64,000 bases of DNA, from the NCBI RefSeq assembly GCF_000223985.1, contig NZ_AFWV01000001.1, forward strand, positions 372,001 to 436,000, written 5' to 3'. This document shows, in pieces, positions 55,829-64,000 of this stretch. Within the stretch, counting starts at the first letter, position 1, and each line of letters opens with the position of its first letter. Below the pieces are notes generated by a model. That model worked only from the letters and a program-made list of their open reading frames with translations, ran no database searches and had not been told where the DNA came from. The stretch is from Thiocapsa marina 5811. GTDB taxonomy: Bacteria; Pseudomonadota; Gammaproteobacteria; Chromatiales; Chromatiaceae. A program made the translations under genes and the position numbers.

Positions 55829-56596
55829 ATGCGACAGAAGCTCGATTCACCCTTCGACGAGACGCCCGGGCGTATTGCCCGACACCTCGGTGCCTCGCTG
55901 GCCGCCCTCGGGTTGGCGGCGGCGTCGCTGGCGAACCCCGGGATGGCCGAACCGTTGCCGAGCACGTCGATCGCGCGCATGGCGCAGCTGCCGTCCGGCG
56001 GCCTGCAGGCGGTGGAGACCACCGACGGGGAGCTGCTGTTCTTCTCCGAGAACGGACGCTACGTGCTGCGCGGCAGTGCCGTGGATCTCTGGCACGGGGC
56101 CAAGCTCACGGCGTTCGATCAGACCCAACACCTCGCCGGGCGGATCGATCTCGCACGACTGAAGCTCGACGTGGCCGATCTGGGGGCGATCGACGTCGGC
56201 GAAGGCCCCGAGGTGGTGGTCTTCGTCGATCCCTTCTGCCCCCATTGCACCGCGCTCTACGCCGATCTGGCGCCGTTGCGCGCGACCTATCGCTTCCGGC
56301 TGGTCCCGATTCCGGTCCTGGGCGAGTCCTCGCAGCGCGCCGTGCTCGCGCTGGCGTGCCTGTCCGGATCCGCTCCCGAGCAGGCGCGCGACGCGCTGCT
56401 CGGCGGGCAGACCGCAGACCTCCCGGAGCCCGCGGCGGGATGCGGCGAAGCCGTTGCCCAACGCACCCTGATCGCGGCCCAAATCCTCGGGATTCGCGGC
56501 ACGCCCTTCCTGATCGCGCCGGACGGGCGCCTGCATCAAGGTCGCCCCGCCGACCTGGCAGCCTGGCTCGCCGCGGTCGAGGAGCGCGGCGAATGA
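55829..56596 (+). CDS. DsbC-like thiol-disulfide protein of the conjugation operon
   Basis: The product is 255 aa with a signal peptide (SLAALGLAAASLANPGMAEP). The N-terminal domain resembles the DsbC dimerisation region (GELLFFSENGRYVLRG), and the thioredoxin domain has the active site DPFCPHCTALY and the cis-proline in GIRGTPFLIAPDG. It would help disulfide formation in the many cysteine-rich transfer proteins such as TraU. DsbC genes are standard in F-type systems of SXT-like elements. It is the first gene of the operon here; its stop overlaps the next start. Confidence 0.85.
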   Translation: MRQKLDSPFDETPGRIARHLGASLAALGLAAASLANPGMAEPLPSTSIARMAQLPSGGLQAVETTDGELLFFSENGRYVLRGSAVDLWHGAKLTAFDQTQHLAGRIDLARLKLDVADLGAIDVGEGPEVVVFVDPFCPHCTALYADLAPLRATYRFRLVPIPVLGESSQRAVLALACLSGSAPEQARDALLGGQTADLPEPAAGCGEAVAQRTLIAAQILGIRGTPFLIAPDGRLHQGRPADLAAWLAAVEERGE

Positions 56597-56838
56597 TCCA
56601 TGCCACACCCCTGCTGCTGTGCGCAGCCCTGCTCGGGGGTTGCGCCTCGGGCAACCCCGAATACGCCTGTCCCGGCTATCCGGGCAAACCGCTCTGTCTG
56701 CCGCCGAGTGCCGTCTACAGCCTCAGCGACGGGGCCGGGCCACCGCCCGCGTCGGTCGCACGCGCCCTGCCGATCGAAACCGAAAGCGGGTTTGCAGCCG
56801 GGTCCGGTTGGGCGTGGACCACACGCCTGCGCGATTAG
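56593..56838 (+). CDS. traV: TraV-like lipoprotein, N-terminal type
   Basis: The product is 81 aa from the ATG at 56593, overlapping the dsbC-like stop (ATGA). It has a lipoprotein signal with the lipobox LLGGC, then YACPGYPGKPLCLPPSAVYS, which matches the cysteine-containing N-terminal region of TraV proteins. TraV forms the outer-membrane core of the F-type channel with TraK and TraB. At 81 aa it is about half the usual length; the missing C-terminal part appears in the next gene. Confidence 0.65.
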   Translation: MIHATPLLLCAALLGGCASGNPEYACPGYPGKPLCLPPSAVYSLSDGAGPPPASVARALPIETESGFAAGSGWAWTTRLRD

Positions 56839-56847
56839 GAGACCGCC

Positions 56848-57252
56848 ATGACCTCACGCCTCACGCTGCCGCTCATGCTCTCGGCGCTCGCCGCCCTGAA
56901 CGGCTGCGCCACCCGAGCACCCGTCCCGGAATCGGTGGCGGCTCAAGACCAACGCCCCGCCGAGTATCAACCCAAACGCGCCGCCGCCTCGGCGATGCAG
57001 GCCTGGATCGCCCCTTGGGAGGATGCGACCGGCGATCTGTATCCGCCCTCCACGGTGTACATCGAGGTGCTGCGCGAGCACTGGCACTACGACGGCGAAC
57101 CGCACGGGGGTTTGACCGTACTGCGACCCTTGCAGGTGCAGCCGCGATCGGCCGCGCCGGGCGGTCAGCCGGTCCTGCCCCCGGATGCGGTTCCGACGGA
57201 TCCGGCACACGCACCCGCGCACCTGCCGCGGGCGGACAAGCGCGGCGCCTGA
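56848..57252 (+). CDS. Lipoprotein with the TraV C-terminal motif
   Basis: The product is 134 aa with AGGAG before the ATG. It has its own lipobox (ALNGC). The middle contains MQAWIAPWEDATGDLYPPST and then VYIEVLREHWHYDG, the pattern that ends TraV proteins of F and SXT-like systems (WIAP...D...P..V). It starts 9 bp after the preceding TraV-like gene. TraV function therefore seems divided between two lipoproteins. The C-terminal tail is proline-rich. Confidence 0.65.
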   Translation: MTSRLTLPLMLSALAALNGCATRAPVPESVAAQDQRPAEYQPKRAAASAMQAWIAPWEDATGDLYPPSTVYIEVLREHWHYDGEPHGGLTVLRPLQVQPRSAAPGGQPVLPPDAVPTDPAHAPAHLPRADKRGA

Positions 57253-57336
57253 ACACCGTGGTCCGGTGCAGACCGGACGATCGGCCCACCCGAACCCGCG
57301 CGGCGCGGGTTCCTCAACCCTTCGGAGAAGCGTTTC

Positions 57337-57669
57337 ATGTTGTCCCCGCCCCCGTTGTCCGGTCGCGACCGCCGGACCCTGCTGTTCGCGGGCCTCGCCG
57401 CGACCCTGGTTGTTTTGGCGATCTCCGCCACCGCCTCGGCCGGTACCACCGGCACCGAGTTCTCGGCCCTCTACACCCTGCTCACCGGTTGGATGACCGG
57501 CTTTCTGGGCCGCGTGGTGGCCGTGATCTTCATCATCATCGGCGTCATCGCCGGTGCCGCACGCCAGTCGATCATGGGCTTCGTCCTGGGCATCGCCGCC
57601 GGCGTGGGCATGTTCCTGGCCCCGGCGATCGTCGACGGCGTCGTCACCGCCACCCTGCCCGTCCTCTGA
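57337..57669 (+). CDS. traA: TraA/VirB2-like pilin precursor
   Basis: The product is 110 aa with GGAG before the ATG. A long basic and hydrophobic leader (DRRTLLFAGLAATLVVLAIS) ends at SASA, followed by a mature pilin of about 75 aa with two hydrophobic helices (VVAVIFIIIGVIAGAA, IMGFVLGIAAGVGMFLAPAI). It is the pilus subunit. Its position after traV and before traC matches SXT-like operons. Confidence 0.8.
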   Translation: MLSPPPLSGRDRRTLLFAGLAATLVVLAISATASAGTTGTEFSALYTLLTGWMTGFLGRVVAVIFIIIGVIAGAARQSIMGFVLGIAAGVGMFLAPAIVDGVVTATLPVL

Positions 57670-57755
57670 TCGGATCGTTCCGATCGCCCGGACCCCGACC
57701 ATCGGGTCCATTGCCGGGTCCCGACCACGGGACCCATTTTCCACGCGAGGTCTTC

Positions 57756-58673
57756 ATGGTCGGATTCCACTGGCGCGCCATCGCCGGCGTGGCCCTCGTC
57801 ATGGCAATTGCGGTCGCGCATGCCGACGCTGCCCCGCGGCTTCCCGAATCCCTGATCGGCGTGTTGCCCGGTGTCGGCGATCTCGTCGTCTATCCGCGTT
57901 CGGGCGAGGTCCACGTCTGCCGGCGCATGCCCTTACTCGCCTCGGCGGGCTGCACGAGCGCGCTGCAGGTCATCGACGGCGCGCTCGCCCATCGCGACGC
58001 CTGGCTCGCGGGCACCGCCGATCTTCTTTATCCAACGGATCCGGACATCGCGGTGCTCGATCGTGCGATCGCCCTCGCCTCGGACGGCGCGGACGGTCTC
58101 TTCGTGGTCGCCTACCGGATGGCACGGCACCACGCCGACGGCGTTGCGTCCCGGTCACAGGAGCTGGTGATCACGCGCTGCGGCGTAGCCCCCGGTTCCC
58201 ACGCCGAGGCGACCCCCGGCGCCTCGGCGCTCTGCAGCGAGGCGGAATATTCCGTTGAACCGACCGGCGAAGCGCAGACGACAGGCGCGCATGCACACAA
58301 CAGTGCCGGTCGCCTCGCCGTCGCCACGACCGCCCATGGCCTGGCCGTCCTGCTCCCCGACGGTGGCGCGCTCTTCACGGCCGACGCGGTCGACCCGCTC
58401 GCCTGGAGCGCGGCGCACATCCGACGTCACCCGCAGCCGATGTTCGCGTCGGCCTCGGACACCGAAGCGGGTCTGGACGCGCGCGGAGCCGTCTTCCGGC
58501 TTCATCCGTCCGCCATCGCCGATGCGCTAATCGTCACGCGCGAAGTCGCCGCCGTCGACGGCGCGACCCTGGTGTCGCTCGGCTCCCTGCCTGCCGACCC
58601 GAGCAACCGCACTCCGATGGTCCGACTCGCGGAGACCCGCCTGTTCGACAGTGCTCACGGGGCACGGCCATGA
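57756..58673 (+). CDS. Exported protein of the transfer operon, unknown
   Basis: The product is 305 aa from the ATG at 57756, with GCGAGG upstream. It has a signal peptide (IAGVALVMAIAVAHADAAPR) and a soluble periplasmic body with a few cysteines (VHVCRRMPLLASAGCTS, ITRCG). I recognise no Tra family. Its place between traA and traC suggests a structural or accessory role in pilus or channel assembly. Its stop overlaps the next start as ATGA. Confidence 0.7.
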   Translation: MVGFHWRAIAGVALVMAIAVAHADAAPRLPESLIGVLPGVGDLVVYPRSGEVHVCRRMPLLASAGCTSALQVIDGALAHRDAWLAGTADLLYPTDPDIAVLDRAIALASDGADGLFVVAYRMARHHADGVASRSQELVITRCGVAPGSHAEATPGASALCSEAEYSVEPTGEAQTTGAHAHNSAGRLAVATTAHGLAVLLPDGGALFTADAVDPLAWSAAHIRRHPQPMFASASDTEAGLDARGAVFRLHPSAIADALIVTREVAAVDGATLVSLGSLPADPSNRTPMVRLAETRLFDSAHGARP

Positions 58674-58831
58674 GCCGCTCCCGCAGCGCCTCGGTCCAGG
58701 TGCGCTCGCCCTCCGGCAAACCCCTGAGCGACTGTGCCCGCCGCCGCGCCCGGGAGATGGTCCGCCGCGGCCGCGCGACCTGGATCTCGACCTCACCCCC
58801 GATCATCCGCCTGACCGAGCAGCCCTCATGA
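58670..58831 (+). CDS. 53-aa PLMP/RRXRR-domain-like protein
   Basis: The ORF is coupled at both ends: its ATG overlaps the previous stop and its TGA overlaps the traC ATG. The sequence contains VQVRSPSGKPLSDC, RRRAREMVRRGRATW and PPIIRL. Spacing and residues match the PLMP (RRXRR) domain found at the N-terminus of IscB and related OMEGA proteins (V.V...GKPL..C...RAR.L...GRA.......P..IRL). Here the domain stands alone, without nuclease. It is strongly basic and may bind RNA or DNA. The homology is by eye. Confidence 0.65.
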   Translation: MSRSRSASVQVRSPSGKPLSDCARRRAREMVRRGRATWISTSPPIIRLTEQPS

Positions 58832-61242
58832 CGACACCGCGCCGTTTTACCGGCTCGCGCGCCAACGCGCTCTTCCCGACCCTGGCCTACGACCCGGACA
58901 GCCATCTGTTTCTGCTCGACGATCAGTCGCTCGCCTTCGGCTATCTGTGCGAGCCCCTCTCCGCCGCCGATCAGTCCAACGCCGACCGGCTGCTGGTGCT
59001 CGGCAATCTCGACTGGCCGCCCGAGACGCTGCTGCAGGTCGCGCTCTGGACCTCGCCGGATATCGAGGAGACGGTCGCGCGCATGGAAGGGCTGCGCATC
59101 GAGACCGCCACCGCGCTGTTGCGCGAATCCACGCGCCGCACCGCCGCCTATCTGCGCGCCGGCAGCAGCGCTCCGGTCTCGCCGTCGAGCGATCTGCGTC
59201 TGCGCGAGCTGCAGGTGTTGGTCACGGCCAAGCTGCCGCTGGCCGCCCCGCAGCCGAGCGCGCACGAGCTGCGCGATGCCCGCGAGCTGCAGGCGACCGC
59301 CCTGCAGGTGCTGGTCACCGCCGGGATGCGCCCGACGAGCCTCACCGCCGACCGCCACGTGCGGATCATGACGACCCTGCTCAACTGGGGGCCGCAGGCG
59401 GGGTGGCGCGACCGCATCACGCCCGAGTGCGATGCCCGGCGTCCGGTCCGCGATCAGTATCTGGACTACGACGTCGGCATCGACGTCGACGCCAAGGGCA
59501 TCACGCTCGGGGAGCAACGCATCCAGACCTTCTCGGTCAAACGCTTTCCCGACCGGGCCGGCTTCGGGCTGGCCGCGCGCTTCCTCGGAGATCCCTTCTC
59601 GGGCTCGCGCGGGGTGCGCCACACTGCGCTGATCACCCTGAACCTGCATTTCCCGGATGCCGAGGCGACGCGGGTGAATCTCACCTCGCGCGCCCAATGG
59701 GCGGCCCATCAGGTGAGCGGCAATCTGTCGCACTACATGCCGCGTCTGGCCCATAACAAGCGCGATTTCGACGCCTTGTTCGCCCGTCTGGATCATGGCG
59801 ACCGCCCGCTCCAGGCCTATCTGGGGATCGTGCTCTTCACCGCCCCGGAGGAGGCTGCCGGGGCGGCCTCGAACCTGCGCACCTATTGGCGCGAGCTCGG
59901 CTTTCAGGTCTTGACCGACCGCTTCTTCGTGCTGCCGCTGTTTCTCAACTGTCTGCCGTTCGGGGCCGATCGCGGGGCGATCCGCACCAGCTTTCGCTAC
60001 CGCACCCTCTCCGCCGCCCACGCCGTCGCGCTCATGCCGGTCTTCGGCGACTGGAAGGGCACCGGCACCCCGGTGCTGAACCTGATCGGGCGCACCGGTC
60101 AGCTCGTGGATCTGAGCCTCTTCGACTCGGCGACCAACTACAACGCCGTGATCGCCGCCTCCTCGGGCTCGGGCAAGTCGTTCCTCGCCAACGAGCTGCT
60201 CTCGACCAACCTGAGTGTCGGCGGGCGCTGCTGGGTGATCGACGTCGGGCGCAGCTACGCCAACCTCTGCGCGTCCCTCGGCGGGCAGTTCGTCGCCTTC
60301 ACCGCCGATTCGGACATCGTGCTGAATCCCTTCGAGCTGCTTCGCACCTGGGAGGAGGACGCCGACGTGATCGCCGCCATGGTCACGGCGATGGCCGCCC
60401 CGACCGAGCCGCTCGGCGACTACCGCACCGCCGGGCTCAAACGCGCCCTGCGCGAGCTGTGGGACACCCACGGCACGACGATGACCGTGGATCTGATCGC
60501 CGCGGCCATGCTCGCCTGCGCCGACGAGCGCCTGCAGGACGTCGGCGTGCAGTTGCATCCCTTCACCTCGCGCGGGGAATACGGACGCTGGTTCCACGGG
60601 CGCAACACCATGGACTTCAGCGCGGATCTGGTGGTGCTCGAGCTCGAAGAGCTCAAAGGACGTAAACACCTCCAGCAGGTCATCCTGCTGCAGCTGATCT
60701 TCCAGATCCAGCAGGCGATGTACCTGGGCGAGCGCGCACGCCAGAAGCTGGTGCTGATCGACGAGGCCTGGGATCTGCTCACCCAGGGGGATGTCGCGAC
60801 CTTCATCGAGCACGGCTACCGGCGCTTTCGCAAGTACAACGGGGCCGCGATCACCGTCACCCAGTCCCTCGCCGACCTCTACGCCAACCCCACCGGGCGG
60901 GCGATCGCCGACAACAGCGCCCACACCCTCCTGCTCGCCCAGCCCGGTCACGCCATCGATCGTCTCAAGGCCGATCACCGTCTGCCGATGACCGCCGCGG
61001 GGGCGGAGATGCTCAAGACCGTGCATACGGTCCCCGGTGCCTACTCCGAGATCATGACCCTCACCGACAGCGGCGCGGGGATCGGCCGGCTGATGGTCGA
61101 CCCCTTCCGGCAACTCCTCTACTCCACCAAGCCCGCGGACGTGGCGGCGATCCGGCGTCTGCGCGAGCGCGGGATGAGCGTCGAGCAGGCGATCAACCGG
61201 TTGCTGGCGGGGGCCGAGACGGAGGCGTCCGATGCTGCCTGA
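58828..61242 (+). CDS. traC: TraC, type IV secretion ATPase
   Basis: The product is 804 aa, normal for TraC/VirB4 of F-type systems. It shows Walker A ASSGSGKSFLANELL at about residue 450, Walker B KLVLIDEAWDLL and the later motif ITVTQSLADLY. It powers pilus assembly and DNA transfer at the cytoplasmic membrane. The start overlaps the stop of the tiny PLMP-like gene, and its end overlaps trbI. Confidence 0.93.
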   Translation: MTTPRRFTGSRANALFPTLAYDPDSHLFLLDDQSLAFGYLCEPLSAADQSNADRLLVLGNLDWPPETLLQVALWTSPDIEETVARMEGLRIETATALLRESTRRTAAYLRAGSSAPVSPSSDLRLRELQVLVTAKLPLAAPQPSAHELRDARELQATALQVLVTAGMRPTSLTADRHVRIMTTLLNWGPQAGWRDRITPECDARRPVRDQYLDYDVGIDVDAKGITLGEQRIQTFSVKRFPDRAGFGLAARFLGDPFSGSRGVRHTALITLNLHFPDAEATRVNLTSRAQWAAHQVSGNLSHYMPRLAHNKRDFDALFARLDHGDRPLQAYLGIVLFTAPEEAAGAASNLRTYWRELGFQVLTDRFFVLPLFLNCLPFGADRGAIRTSFRYRTLSAAHAVALMPVFGDWKGTGTPVLNLIGRTGQLVDLSLFDSATNYNAVIAASSGSGKSFLANELLSTNLSVGGRCWVIDVGRSYANLCASLGGQFVAFTADSDIVLNPFELLRTWEEDADVIAAMVTAMAAPTEPLGDYRTAGLKRALRELWDTHGTTMTVDLIAAAMLACADERLQDVGVQLHPFTSRGEYGRWFHGRNTMDFSADLVVLELEELKGRKHLQQVILLQLIFQIQQAMYLGERARQKLVLIDEAWDLLTQGDVATFIEHGYRRFRKYNGAAITVTQSLADLYANPTGRAIADNSAHTLLLAQPGHAIDRLKADHRLPMTAAGAEMLKTVHTVPGAYSEIMTLTDSGAGIGRLMVDPFRQLLYSTKPADVAAIRRLRERGMSVEQAINRLLAGAETEASDAA

Positions 61243-61609
61243 GACCACCGTCCCCGAGATTCGGCACCCGGAAACCCGGGTTCCCGCGGATCGCCGTGCA
61301 GGTTCCATCCTGTTGTTCGCGGCGATCCTGCCGGCGGCACTCGCCGGCGGTTACCTCGGTGCCGAGATCACGGCCCGGCCGCTGCGCGAGGCCATCGCCA
61401 CCCGCCCGCCGGTGCTGATCATCGATGTCGCGGCCGCCCTTGACGGGATCGCGCCGGAGGACGTCGGCGAGGCGATCGCGGACCTCAGGACAACCGCCGT
61501 GCGTCTCGCCGACGGTGGCGTTCTGGTGTTGGACGCCCAGGCCGTGCTCGCCGCGCCGGAGGATGTCTATGTCCGGCCGCGGGATGTGCCGTCGAGGGGG
61601 CAGCCGTGA
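61232..61609 (+). CDS. trbI: TrbI-like conjugation protein
   Basis: The product is 125 aa with GGAGG before the ATG. It has one membrane helix (SILLFAAILPAALAGGYLG) and a periplasmic domain beginning VLIIDVAAALDG, a strand typical of F-type TrbI, which influences pilus retraction. It overlaps traC by 11 bp and the next gene by 4 bp. Confidence 0.65.
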   Translation: MLPETTVPEIRHPETRVPADRRAGSILLFAAILPAALAGGYLGAEITARPLREAIATRPPVLIIDVAAALDGIAPEDVGEAIADLRTTAVRLADGGVLVLDAQAVLAAPEDVYVRPRDVPSRGQP

Positions 61610-62136
61610 GCGCAGACACCCACATCGCCGCCTCGCCCGCAGCCCGCCTGGCGCGCACCATCCGGCACGGTCTGCCGGCGCTGCTCGTCGTCCTGGCCTC
61701 GATGCTGTATTTCGGGACGCGCTTTCGCATCGCGATCGACGATCAGGTCGACAAGTGCTTGCCGCCCTACACCGTTTTTCTGGTGGATCGCCACGACAGC
61801 GCGATCGCGCGCGACGGCCTCTACGCCTTCCCCGCCGGCGAGCGCATGGCGCCGTTCTTCCCGATGCAGATGCAGGTCATCAAGCGGGTCGTCGGATTGC
61901 CCGGAGAAACGGTCTCGGTCACTGAACAGACCACGCGGGTGGACGGGCGAACGGTCGGCGAAGGACTGGATCTGGCCGGCACGCTCGGCACGCCCGCAGC
62001 GACGTTCGTCCGCGAGGTCGTGGTCCCCGCCGATGCGCTCTGGATCATGGGTGCCACCCGCGACAGCTTCGACTCGCGCTACTGGGGGCCGCTGCCCCGT
62101 CATCAGATTATCGGGCGGGCCTATGCGGTGTTCTGA
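61606..62136 (+). CDS. traF: S26-family conjugation signal peptidase (TraF/TrhF type)
   Basis: The product is 176 aa from a GTG overlapping the previous stop. An N-terminal helix (LPALLVVLASMLYFG) anchors it. The S26 fold has VIKRVVGLPGETV with the general-base lysine, and IMGATRDSFDSRYWGPL near the end. At the position where the nucleophilic serine is expected the sequence reads KCLPPYTVFLV, so a cysteine may replace it. It would process the pilin or other transfer proteins. Confidence 0.82.
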   Translation: MSADTHIAASPAARLARTIRHGLPALLVVLASMLYFGTRFRIAIDDQVDKCLPPYTVFLVDRHDSAIARDGLYAFPAGERMAPFFPMQMQVIKRVVGLPGETVSVTEQTTRVDGRTVGEGLDLAGTLGTPAATFVREVVVPADALWIMGATRDSFDSRYWGPLPRHQIIGRAYAVF

Positions 62137-63307
62137 CCTTCGCTACCCTGCTCTGCTTGGCGCGTTGCTCCAGATCGCAACGGCGGCCTCCGTCCAGGCG
62201 AGCGAGCGCGCCGACCTGCGGGCACTGCGCGATCAGGCCGGTGCCATCCAAGAGGCGGTCTCCGGCACGCCACTCCCGGACTGGCTCCGGCCGGGCTCCG
62301 AGACCTCGGCGCGCGCGGGCGAGGTGCTCGGCGTGGCCGAACGCGAACGAATGCAGCGACTGACCACCGCGCAAAAGCCCGCCGTCCCAGGTCCGGACGC
62401 AACCCCAACGCAGACGATCACGCTCCTGGTCTCGCGCGCCTTGGGCGCGGCTGCCCTGCGCGACATCTTCGCCACGGCCGCCCGACCCGACGTGCGAGTG
62501 GTCTTTCGGGGTGTGGCCGAAGGCGAACCGCTGATGGATTTCATGCGCGCGATCCATGCCGAGCTTGAGGGCCTCGATCCGCTGCCCACGGTTGAACTCG
62601 ACCCGACACCCTTTCGCGAGGCCTGCGCCGAGGCCGTCCCGCTGATGATCCTGTCCGGACCCGACGGGGAGATCGCGCGGGTCGCCGGCCTGTCGGATCC
62701 GGCCTGGCTGCAGGCGCAGGTGGCGGCCGGCCGGACCGGGGATCTGGGCGTGCGCGGACCGGTCGAGACGATCTCCGAACCGGACATGCTCGAGGAGATC
62801 GCGCGTCGGATCGCCGCGCTGGATCTCACGGCACTGCGCGAGCATGCGCTCGCGCGCTATTGGACACGCGCGGCCTTCGAACATCTGCCGGCCGCGCGGG
62901 AGGCTCGCACGCGGGTGATCGATCCCGTGATCGAGGCCAAGGCCGATATCGCCCTGCCGGACGGCACCGTCCTGGTGCGGGCCGGCGAGCGGCTCAACCC
63001 GCTCGATCGCCTGGCCTTCGGGCTGCGTCTGGTGGTGTTCGATCCGACCGAAGCAGCCCAGGTCCGCACGGCCCATCGTCTGGGCGAGAGCGCCGGGACG
63101 TTGCGGACGGTCTATCTGGCGACCCGTTTGGATCGCGAGGCCGGCTGGGAGGGCTTTCGCGCGATCGAGGATGCCCTGGAGGAGACGGTCTATCTGCTCA
63201 CCCCCGACGTGCGCGAACGCTTCGCCCTGGAGCGCGTGCCGGCGAGCGTCGAGGCCGCCGGTCGTGTCTTCCTGGTGCGCGAGCATCCCCCGGAGGAACC
63301 CCGATGA
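62123..63307 (+). CDS. traW: TrbC-TraW fusion, F-type pilus assembly
   Basis: The product is 394 aa from the ATG at 62123, overlapping traF by 14 bp. After a signal peptide, about residues 80-210 form a TrbC-like domain (ITLLVSRALGAAALRDIF, VVFRGVAEGEPLMDFM). From about residue 260 a TraW domain follows (IDPVIEAKADIALPDG, LVRAGERLNPLDRL). The two are separate genes in F and fused in several other elements. Both act in pilin assembly in the periplasm. Its stop overlaps the traU start. Confidence 0.85.
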   Translation: MRCSDLRYPALLGALLQIATAASVQASERADLRALRDQAGAIQEAVSGTPLPDWLRPGSETSARAGEVLGVAERERMQRLTTAQKPAVPGPDATPTQTITLLVSRALGAAALRDIFATAARPDVRVVFRGVAEGEPLMDFMRAIHAELEGLDPLPTVELDPTPFREACAEAVPLMILSGPDGEIARVAGLSDPAWLQAQVAAGRTGDLGVRGPVETISEPDMLEEIARRIAALDLTALREHALARYWTRAAFEHLPAAREARTRVIDPVIEAKADIALPDGTVLVRAGERLNPLDRLAFGLRLVVFDPTEAAQVRTAHRLGESAGTLRTVYLATRLDREAGWEGFRAIEDALEETVYLLTPDVRERFALERVPASVEAAGRVFLVREHPPEEPR

Positions 63308-64000
63308 AGGCACCCACCCTGCCCCGCCTCGTCGGCCCTGCTCTGCTCCTCGCGGCCCTTCTGACGGCACCCCTCGGCGTGGCCGATGCCGCCGATCCCG
63401 CCTGCCCGGACGCCGAGTTGTTCTCGGGCAAACTGATCACCGACATCTGCTGGGCCTGTCTGTTTCCGATCCGCATCGCCGGCATGCCCCTGTTCGGAGG
63501 AACCGCACCGGCGGGTGCGGCCTCGGCTCCGTTCTGCGCCTGCAACGACGGCCTCGGCGTGCCGCATCCGGGCTTCACCGTCGGGATGTGGGAGCCCGCA
63601 CGGCTGATCGAGCTGGTCCATGCGCCGCGCTGCGCGCCGGCCTTGGGCGGGATCCGCCTGCCGCTCGGCAGTCGCCGGCTGCTCGGCACCGCGGGACAAG
63701 CGGAATACGACGCAAGCGATACGTCCTTCTACAACTTCCACTGGTACGCCTTCCCGCTCCTCATCCTGCTGGATCTGTTCTGGGACGACCGCTGCAACCC
63801 GGACGGCTACGTCGATCTGGACCTGCTCTATCTCTCCGAGCTGGATCCGACCTGGAACCACGACGAGCTGGCCTTCTTCACCAATCCGGAGGCCGCCTGG
63901 CTCGCCAATCCGGTCGCCCTGGCCGCCTGTTTGGCCGATGCCGCGGCAGCCACCGCGGGCACCCCGATCGACGCGCTCTTCTGGTGTGCCGGGACCTGGG
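63304..64000 (+). CDS. traU: TraU, conjugation protein (cut by the window edge)
   Basis: The first 232 aa are present. A signal peptide (LVGPALLLAALLTAPLGVAD) is followed by the cysteine-rich TraU core: CPDAELFSGKLITDICWACL, FCACNDG, GFTVGMWEPARLIEL and FYNFHWYAFPLLILLDLF. TraU is needed for DNA transfer and relies on disulfide formation, which fits the DsbC-like gene in the same operon. Confidence 0.93.
   Translation, partial: MKAPTLPRLVGPALLLAALLTAPLGVADAADPACPDAELFSGKLITDICWACLFPIRIAGMPLFGGTAPAGAASAPFCACNDGLGVPHPGFTVGMWEPARLIELVHAPRCAPALGGIRLPLGSRRLLGTAGQAEYDASDTSFYNFHWYAFPLLILLDLFWDDRCNPDGYVDLDLLYLSELDPTWNHDELAFFTNPEAAWLANPVALAACLADAAAATAGTPIDALFWCAGTW

Follow-up and report, generated by a model that had tools for sequence, protein, structure and literature searches.

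A PLMP-encoding gene precedes traC in Thiocapsa marina

The window analyzed here – a 64,000-nucleotide stretch of the Thiocapsa marina 5811 genome – contains a run of conjugation genes (Table 1). TraV, pilin (below the Pfam cut-off), TraC, and S26 peptidase genes follow the order of an F-type type IV secretion system (T4SS), and the pilin gene occupies the position of the annotated traA in Methylomonas plasmids. The TraC encoded in the window is 98% identical to the nearest Thiocapsa TraC. No TraB (PF03743) gene was found near the tra cluster (window positions 55829-63999), and the genome's three PF03743 matches sit on other contigs, which could mean a split set of transfer genes or a broken assembly. 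The 305-codon gene stands between pilin and PLMP in Thiocapsa loci and does not do so in the other genera for which upstream sequence was inspected.

Table 1. Genes and predicted RNA hairpins of the conjugation cluster (window positions).
Feature	Position	Strand	Basis
DsbC-like disulfide isomerase gene	55829..56596	+	Pfam DsbC_N, 29.3 bits
traV lipoprotein gene	56848..57252	+	Pfam TraV, 37.1 bits
Pilin gene, TrbC/VirB2-like, traA position	57337..57669	+	Pfam TrbC, 23.9 bits (under the cut-off of 27.9)
First tandem hairpin after pilin (GGACCC / GGGTCC)	57690..57709	+	Folds in 9/9 Thiocapsa copies
Second tandem hairpin (GGGTCCCG ACCA CGGGACCC)	57716..57735	+	Folding of Thiocapsa copies
305-codon gene between pilin and PLMP	57756..58673	+	No Pfam family at E <= 0.01
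Stand-alone PLMP mini-protein gene, 53 aa	58670..58831	+	ATG to TGA; Pfam RRXRR, 26.6 bits
traC (T4SS ATPase)	58828..61242	+	Pfam TraC_F_IV, 240.9 bits; ATGA-coupled to PLMP gene
S26 peptidase gene	61606..62136	+	Pfam Peptidase_S26, 70.7 bits

A first-pass annotation had singled out the 53-codon open reading frame between the 305-codon gene and traC, describing it as coupled to both neighbors and as a PLMP domain without the rest of IscB. The coupling is present as claimed: the ATG overlaps the TGA of the preceding gene as ATGA, and the TGA (58829-58831) overlaps the traC ATG in the same manner. Profile searches bear out the domain assignment. The protein matches Pfam RRXRR (PF14239) above the curated cut-off of 25 bits (E 6.5e-6), with residues 9-52 aligning only to positions 1-44 of the 174-position model, which represent the PLMP domain. 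RuvC, bridge helix, and HNH are absent from the frame, which has its own stop and is flanked by tra genes.

A PDB search with the single window sequence gave a weak IscB match (E 0.94). A profile of 14 relatives (A3) retrieved 10 PDB sequences at E <= 1, nine of which are IscB or IsrB, the best being TbaIscB (8.2e-10). All 14 of these relatives match RRXRR at E <= 1, and tblastn with a Methylomonas relative also reached annotated IscB proteins (best E 2e-3). The protein is basic (12 K+R and 3 D+E among 53 residues). We refer to it and its free-standing relatives as mini-PLMPs. The T. marina genome (5.59 Mb) contains two mini-PLMP loci; searching it with PF14239 returned no full RRXRR match, the L003 and L004 rows being weak and on other parts of the model.

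The predicted mini-PLMP fold resembles the IscB PLMP domain

An AlphaFold2 model of the window protein (pLDDT 83, pTM 0.62) has a strand-helix-strand-strand arrangement. Its eight best Foldseek matches are IscB chains (probability 1.00 and TMq 0.71-0.78; E values range from 2e-3 to 8e-3, and none reaches 0.001), with IF3 and IsrB next. VIA gave Z scores of 8.2 for HfmIscB (45 residues, rmsd 1.3) and 6.2 for IsrB, where values under 8 may reflect merely a common arrangement. The IF3 N-terminal domain is the next fold after IscB in both searches – bar one unrelated chain that ties with it in VIA – and its match is weak (Foldseek E 0.05-0.5, Z about 4). A resemblance of the IsrB PLMP to IF3 is already remarked on in sections of PMC9581776.

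Mini-PLMPs accompany traC in two bacterial families

The first-pass annotation had suggested looking for the same small frame beside traC in related elements, and we found it in other genera and in another family. Neither of the outcomes that it had named as refuting its reading, a missing RRXRR profile match and absence of the frame from related elements, thus occurred. TraC is encoded in 31 of 194 Chromatiaceae genomes searched. We read upstream of 43 TraC loci that retain the traC 5′ end (34 loci, L059-L092, plus nine Thiocapsa copies; TraC fragments lacking this end were excluded). In 32 of the 43, a mini-PLMP immediately precedes traC, as scored with a mini-PLMP HMM whose nine training rows are among the scored loci. 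In five of the 11 that lack a clear PLMP, TraC is distant (27-37%), so that 32 of 38 loci with a close TraC carry a mini-PLMP. Among the other six, the core is broken in L060 and L087, none is seen in L063, L064, and L065, and L077 is degenerate (25.6 bits with a broader HMM); two of these six TraC frames contain a stop and one ends at a contig end. The two Thiodictyon loci of this group (L063, L064) each contain a pair of closely similar pilin genes side by side.

A scan of named genomes yielded 38 TraC loci, 27 with a PLMP match (one being the degenerate L117). The matches come from Thiocapsa, Lamprocystis, Thiorhodococcus, Allochromatium, Thiocystis, Thiohalocapsa, Lamprobacter, Halochromatium, Methylomonas, and a Methylococcaceae MAG, and the 11 PLMP-less loci from Thiodictyon (4), a Chromatiaceae MAG (1), TraC matches without the 5′ part (3), and Vibrio (3; TraC 44%). 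In an SXT-type element, the place immediately before traC is taken by DsbC and not by a mini-PLMP. Four Methylomonas plasmids carry a mini-PLMP before traC; sequence and annotation were inspected for three of them, and the PLSDB gene table, itself incomplete, has no separate gene there.

Searched with A3 at E <= 1e-6, 29 of 201 genomes of the methanotroph family gave a match, a count that includes IscB. We fetched 30 loci, of which 23 are mini-PLMPs, all with a pilin before and traC after; the remaining seven are IscB or other, including L247, which has a short distant TraC-like match. These loci were chosen through their PLMP and thus yield no rate of absence.

Profile A1 matched in 21 of 369 genomes of the class, and no fetched locus from another genome had traC. 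Across 398 genomes of the phylum, A3 found only the T. marina genome and one other, the latter with a 510-aa frame. Viral contigs gave no mini-PLMP relative, plasmid tblastn with the window protein and with two other mini-PLMPs gave no match, and neither H36 nor H37, both plasmid matches, has annotated tra genes next to it (the H36 record has no annotation).

Two further features emerged from these loci. Many mini-PLMPs share a conserved N-terminal extension, RHYLSVPKALF..L...ARD....AL (L059, L061, L062, L066-L072, L080). Separately, a PLMP domain is fused in frame to QueH epoxyqueuosine reductase (L220:1733-2530, G392:C212; also L034), scoring 25.9 bits for RRXRR (cut-off 25) and 192 bits for QueH. 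This fusion, present in one of three genomes searched of its family, places a PLMP outside nucleases and on a tRNA-modifying enzyme.

Mini-PLMPs are under purifying selection and form a group apart from IscB

Across nine Thiocapsa copies (eight distinct), the mini-PLMP has a pooled pN/pS of 0.22, versus 1.6 and 3.0 for the shifted frames; the Thiocapsa pilin gives 0.16. A value of 0.34 for a 1200-nt stretch of traC was set aside because row L016 has a stretch of Ns and a disrupted frame. The mini-PLMP is under purifying selection. A chance open reading frame was rejected on this contrast with the shifted frames, on the second genomic copy, and on relatives that precede traC across genera and families.

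We compared residues in 23 mini-PLMP and 38 IscB rows, a few of the latter being poor or cut HMM picks that were counted. Largely common to both are V9, V11, L19, P21, C22, R26-A27-R28, L30, P43, and L48 – of which the window protein deviates at P21 and L30 – and the C..ARAR core is retained in mini-PLMPs. The two sets differ at F10, R40, and the PFTI stretch. The PLMP methionine is found in 0/23 mini-PLMPs versus 28/38 IscB rows, and the window protein reads PLSD at the motif; it is therefore a PLMP-fold relative without the literal P-L-M-P. In a tree of 58 rows, from which three IscB rows had been removed beforehand, one branch parts the 23 mini-PLMPs from 35 IscB sequences (support 99/94, 99% of bootstraps); the tree rests on 43 columns, is unrooted, and carries a long-branch warning.

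A two-hairpin RNA element adjoins mini-PLMP genes outside Thiocapsa

Outside Thiocapsa, mini-PLMP loci contain an uncatalogued two-hairpin RNA element with compensatory changes. Located between pilin and PLMP, it consists of CCGG, a variable loop, CCGAG, a short linker, and a 5-6 bp hairpin that mostly has a GNRA loop; the GAG linker is invariant. It is preceded by ACC in Chromatiaceae and by GCC in most methanotroph copies upstream of the pilin. Rfam gave no match to it at the loci submitted.

In an alignment of 19 rows (A5; 16 Chromatiaceae and three Methylococcales, the latter from before the pilin), 98.3% of cells are paired and 24 cells are changed on both sides. Covariation is 0.398 versus 0.156 in shuffled alignments, and 0/500 shuffles – which ignore relatedness – reach the observed pairing or covariation. 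When the partners are shifted by 1-3 columns, no more than 45% remain paired.

A model trained on 16 Chromatiaceae and three methanotroph rows (R1) matches all 23 non-Thiocapsa Chromatiaceae traC loci with a mini-PLMP (21 directly, and L088 and L089 via the same loci L113 and L132), which given its training set is partly by construction. It matches 0/11 traC loci that lack a clear PLMP and, at E <= 1, 0/19 IscB loci. Over the 194 family genomes, R1 matched 25 times, in 16 genomes; 24 matches fall at PLMP/traC loci, and the remaining one, which is weak, lies inside a long reading frame at a locus without PLMP or traC. In 293 genomes of the class, it returned five weak rows, with no PLMP, traC, or pilin match in their loci.

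Methanotroph loci, mostly independent of the training set, gave R1 matches at 23/23 mini-PLMP loci (best match E <= 0.01 each) and at 0/7 of the IscB or other loci. At E <= 1 there are three matches in 17 loci, two in five, and one in L246. Where there are three, two copies precede the pilin and one lies between pilin and PLMP; this last copy is weaker (15.5-29 bits over all loci). R1 scores only 19.5-21.7 bits at koyamae-type Methylomonas loci (E 0.05-0.16 in one search and 0.0095 in another); L246, of this type, has 21.7 bits. The 62 methanotroph matches, in an alignment fitted to the model, are 96.6% paired, with covariation of 0.294 and 60 doubly changed cells. When 20 pilin-upstream copies were aligned separately with MAFFT, RNAalifold recovered the same two hairpins, with compensatory change in 6/10 pairs, several of which are owed to the divergent row L242.

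The spacing of the element is variable. Its end lies 7-63 nt, and once 107 nt, before the chosen PLMP start in 17 Chromatiaceae loci. At LW13-type methanotroph loci one copy overlaps the first PLMP codons and another ends about 25 nt before the pilin.

Nothing in the window scores above 13.5 bits with R1, and the genus Thiocapsa is likewise without a match. All nine Thiocapsa copies instead have the tandem hairpins of Table 1 in the place of the R1 element, with a different sequence and separated from the PLMP gene by the 305-codon gene; the nine differ by too few changes for a pairing test.

The element is not matched by the omegaRNA models searched

The mini-PLMP resembles the PLMP domain of IscB and IsrB in sequence profile, predicted fold, and C..ARAR core, and differs in lacking RuvC, bridge helix, HNH, WED, and TI, in lacking the PLMP methionine (23/23), and in sitting in a conjugation operon. 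In IscB/IsrB, the RNA whose terminal hairpins the PLMP contacts is encoded immediately upstream of the IscB/IsrB gene itself. Sections of two published studies describe this recognition as mainly without sequence specificity in IscB (PMC9640706) and, in IsrB, as contact with tandem hairpins near the omegaRNA 3′ end, the terminal one holding the isrB Shine-Dalgarno (PMC9581776).

The element shares with omegaRNA/HEARO (RF02033) its place upstream of a PLMP-encoding frame and a helix followed by GAG – the Rfam HEARO alignment has the last helix strand followed by CGAGG, and many IscB loci of these bacteria have a GNRA-loop hairpin just before the iscB ATG – and differs in being about 40 nt rather than about 200. 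Of 37 IscB loci, 15 passed a script that admitted only the layout ACCA, helix, GAG or GAAG, GNRA-type hairpin; this layout is thus one of several in IscB loci and was selected rather than found blind. We regard this resemblance in layout as a lead.

An omegaRNA-like transcript, which the first-pass annotation had proposed seeking nearby, was not found by either approach taken. At gathering thresholds over 14 loci, Rfam placed HEARO at 2/4 IscB loci and 0/10 PLMP loci, and relaxed searches (E <= 10 on six loci, E <= 1 on six loci) gave unrelated rows only. A second model, R2, was built from 11 omegaRNAs (mostly of one class) with the interior cut out, and has no positive control because real omegaRNAs contain that interior; over 27 loci it found no mini-element, its rows falling elsewhere (best 17.6 bits, at the PLMP-less locus L106). 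On these results the element was not identified as HEARO/omegaRNA, and its descent from omegaRNA is not supported.

Possible functions of mini-PLMPs

We consider the best explanation to be that the mini-PLMP is a free-standing RNA-binding protein that tunes expression around the pilin-traC junction (probability roughly 0.5). By analogy with the IscB/IsrB grip on terminal omegaRNA hairpins, the protein would grip the two-hairpin element, and binding in cis may adjust how well the message around the pilin and the PLMP-traC junction is translated or how stable it is. Such control would be autogenous, would extend to the pilin in methanotrophs, and could keep pilin plentiful and TraC scarce, by repression or by stabilization. 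For Thiocapsa, the tandem hairpins that follow the pilin, with their different sequence, would serve as the RNA partner.

The first-pass annotation had proposed that a lone PLMP might bind RNA of the transfer machinery; the covarying element that adjoins the gene outside Thiocapsa makes this plausible, while the binding itself is something we infer and Thiocapsa lacks the element. That lack is the weakest point of the RNA-binding explanation for the window itself. Also counting against it are the weak R1 scores at koyamae-type Methylomonas loci, the varying position of the element relative to the start codon, and the loss of the methionine in 23/23 mini-PLMPs, its motif touching RuvC and omegaRNA in IscB. 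The PLMP gene and the element adjoin, so one deletion removes both, and their co-occurrence is not independent proof of a joint function.

The hairpins might instead act alone, as a processing or stability element of the pilin mRNA, with the PLMP protein doing something unrelated. We judge this possible at well under even odds: hairpins could protect the 3′ end of a pilin message within a polycistron, and Thiocapsa has the PLMP without the R1 element, but none of the 11 PLMP-less traC loci has the element, its invariant GAG linker and mostly GNRA loop are more specific than a stabilizing stem, and methanotroph copies also precede the pilin. A role for the protein in docking, as an accessory to TraC or to the inner-membrane complex of the T4SS, through the face by which IscB contacts RuvC and TI, seems rather improbable. 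Coupling to and co-conservation with traC would fit it, as would the packing of PLMP on RuvC and TI in IsrB (described in sections of PMC9581776), yet it is the RuvC-touching motif that has lost its methionine and the C..ARAR core that is kept; the six close-TraC loci without a clear PLMP weigh weakly against a need of TraC for it, given the defects in three of their TraC frames.

Homology to the IscB PLMP, and iscB genes in the same families, would also fit a protein acting in trans on OMEGA systems, for example an omegaRNA-binding inhibitor protecting the element that carries it; we think this quite unlikely, as the T. marina genome has no full RRXRR match and mini-PLMPs track the traC locus, not IscB. 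The frame is short, and IscB PLMP fragments without traC do exist in relatives, so we also considered a cast-off IscB fragment, an origin floated in the first-pass annotation, or a chance frame. Selection at the level given above, a position conserved over two families, and separation from IscB as one group at 99/94 make either very improbable, and we rejected the cast-off origin. An ancestral origin, the other one floated there, is neither supported nor opposed by our results.

Going beyond the RNA-binding explanation, one could picture the mini-PLMP and its two-hairpin RNA as a minimal, non-cleaving ribonucleoprotein related to the IscB PLMP/omegaRNA core of helix, GAG, and GNRA hairpin plus PLMP, and controlling pilus expression – either a domesticated remnant or a self-leader-binding module ancestral to omegaRNA recognition. 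We offer this as a speculative and on balance unlikely scenario. Sections of the literature searched (including PMC9581776, PMC9640706, PMC9674854, and PMC3985635) describe PLMP only as a part of IscB/IsrB, and neither a stand-alone PLMP nor such an RNA.

A free-standing, selected PLMP family beside a structured RNA offers a 53-residue system for measuring PLMP binding. The F plasmid provides precedents both for control of transfer genes at the RNA level, in FinO/FinP, and for a small gene before traC, in TraR; to our knowledge, these protein families are unrelated to PLMP. Our findings suggest that conjugation is subject to RNA-level control in two bacterial families.
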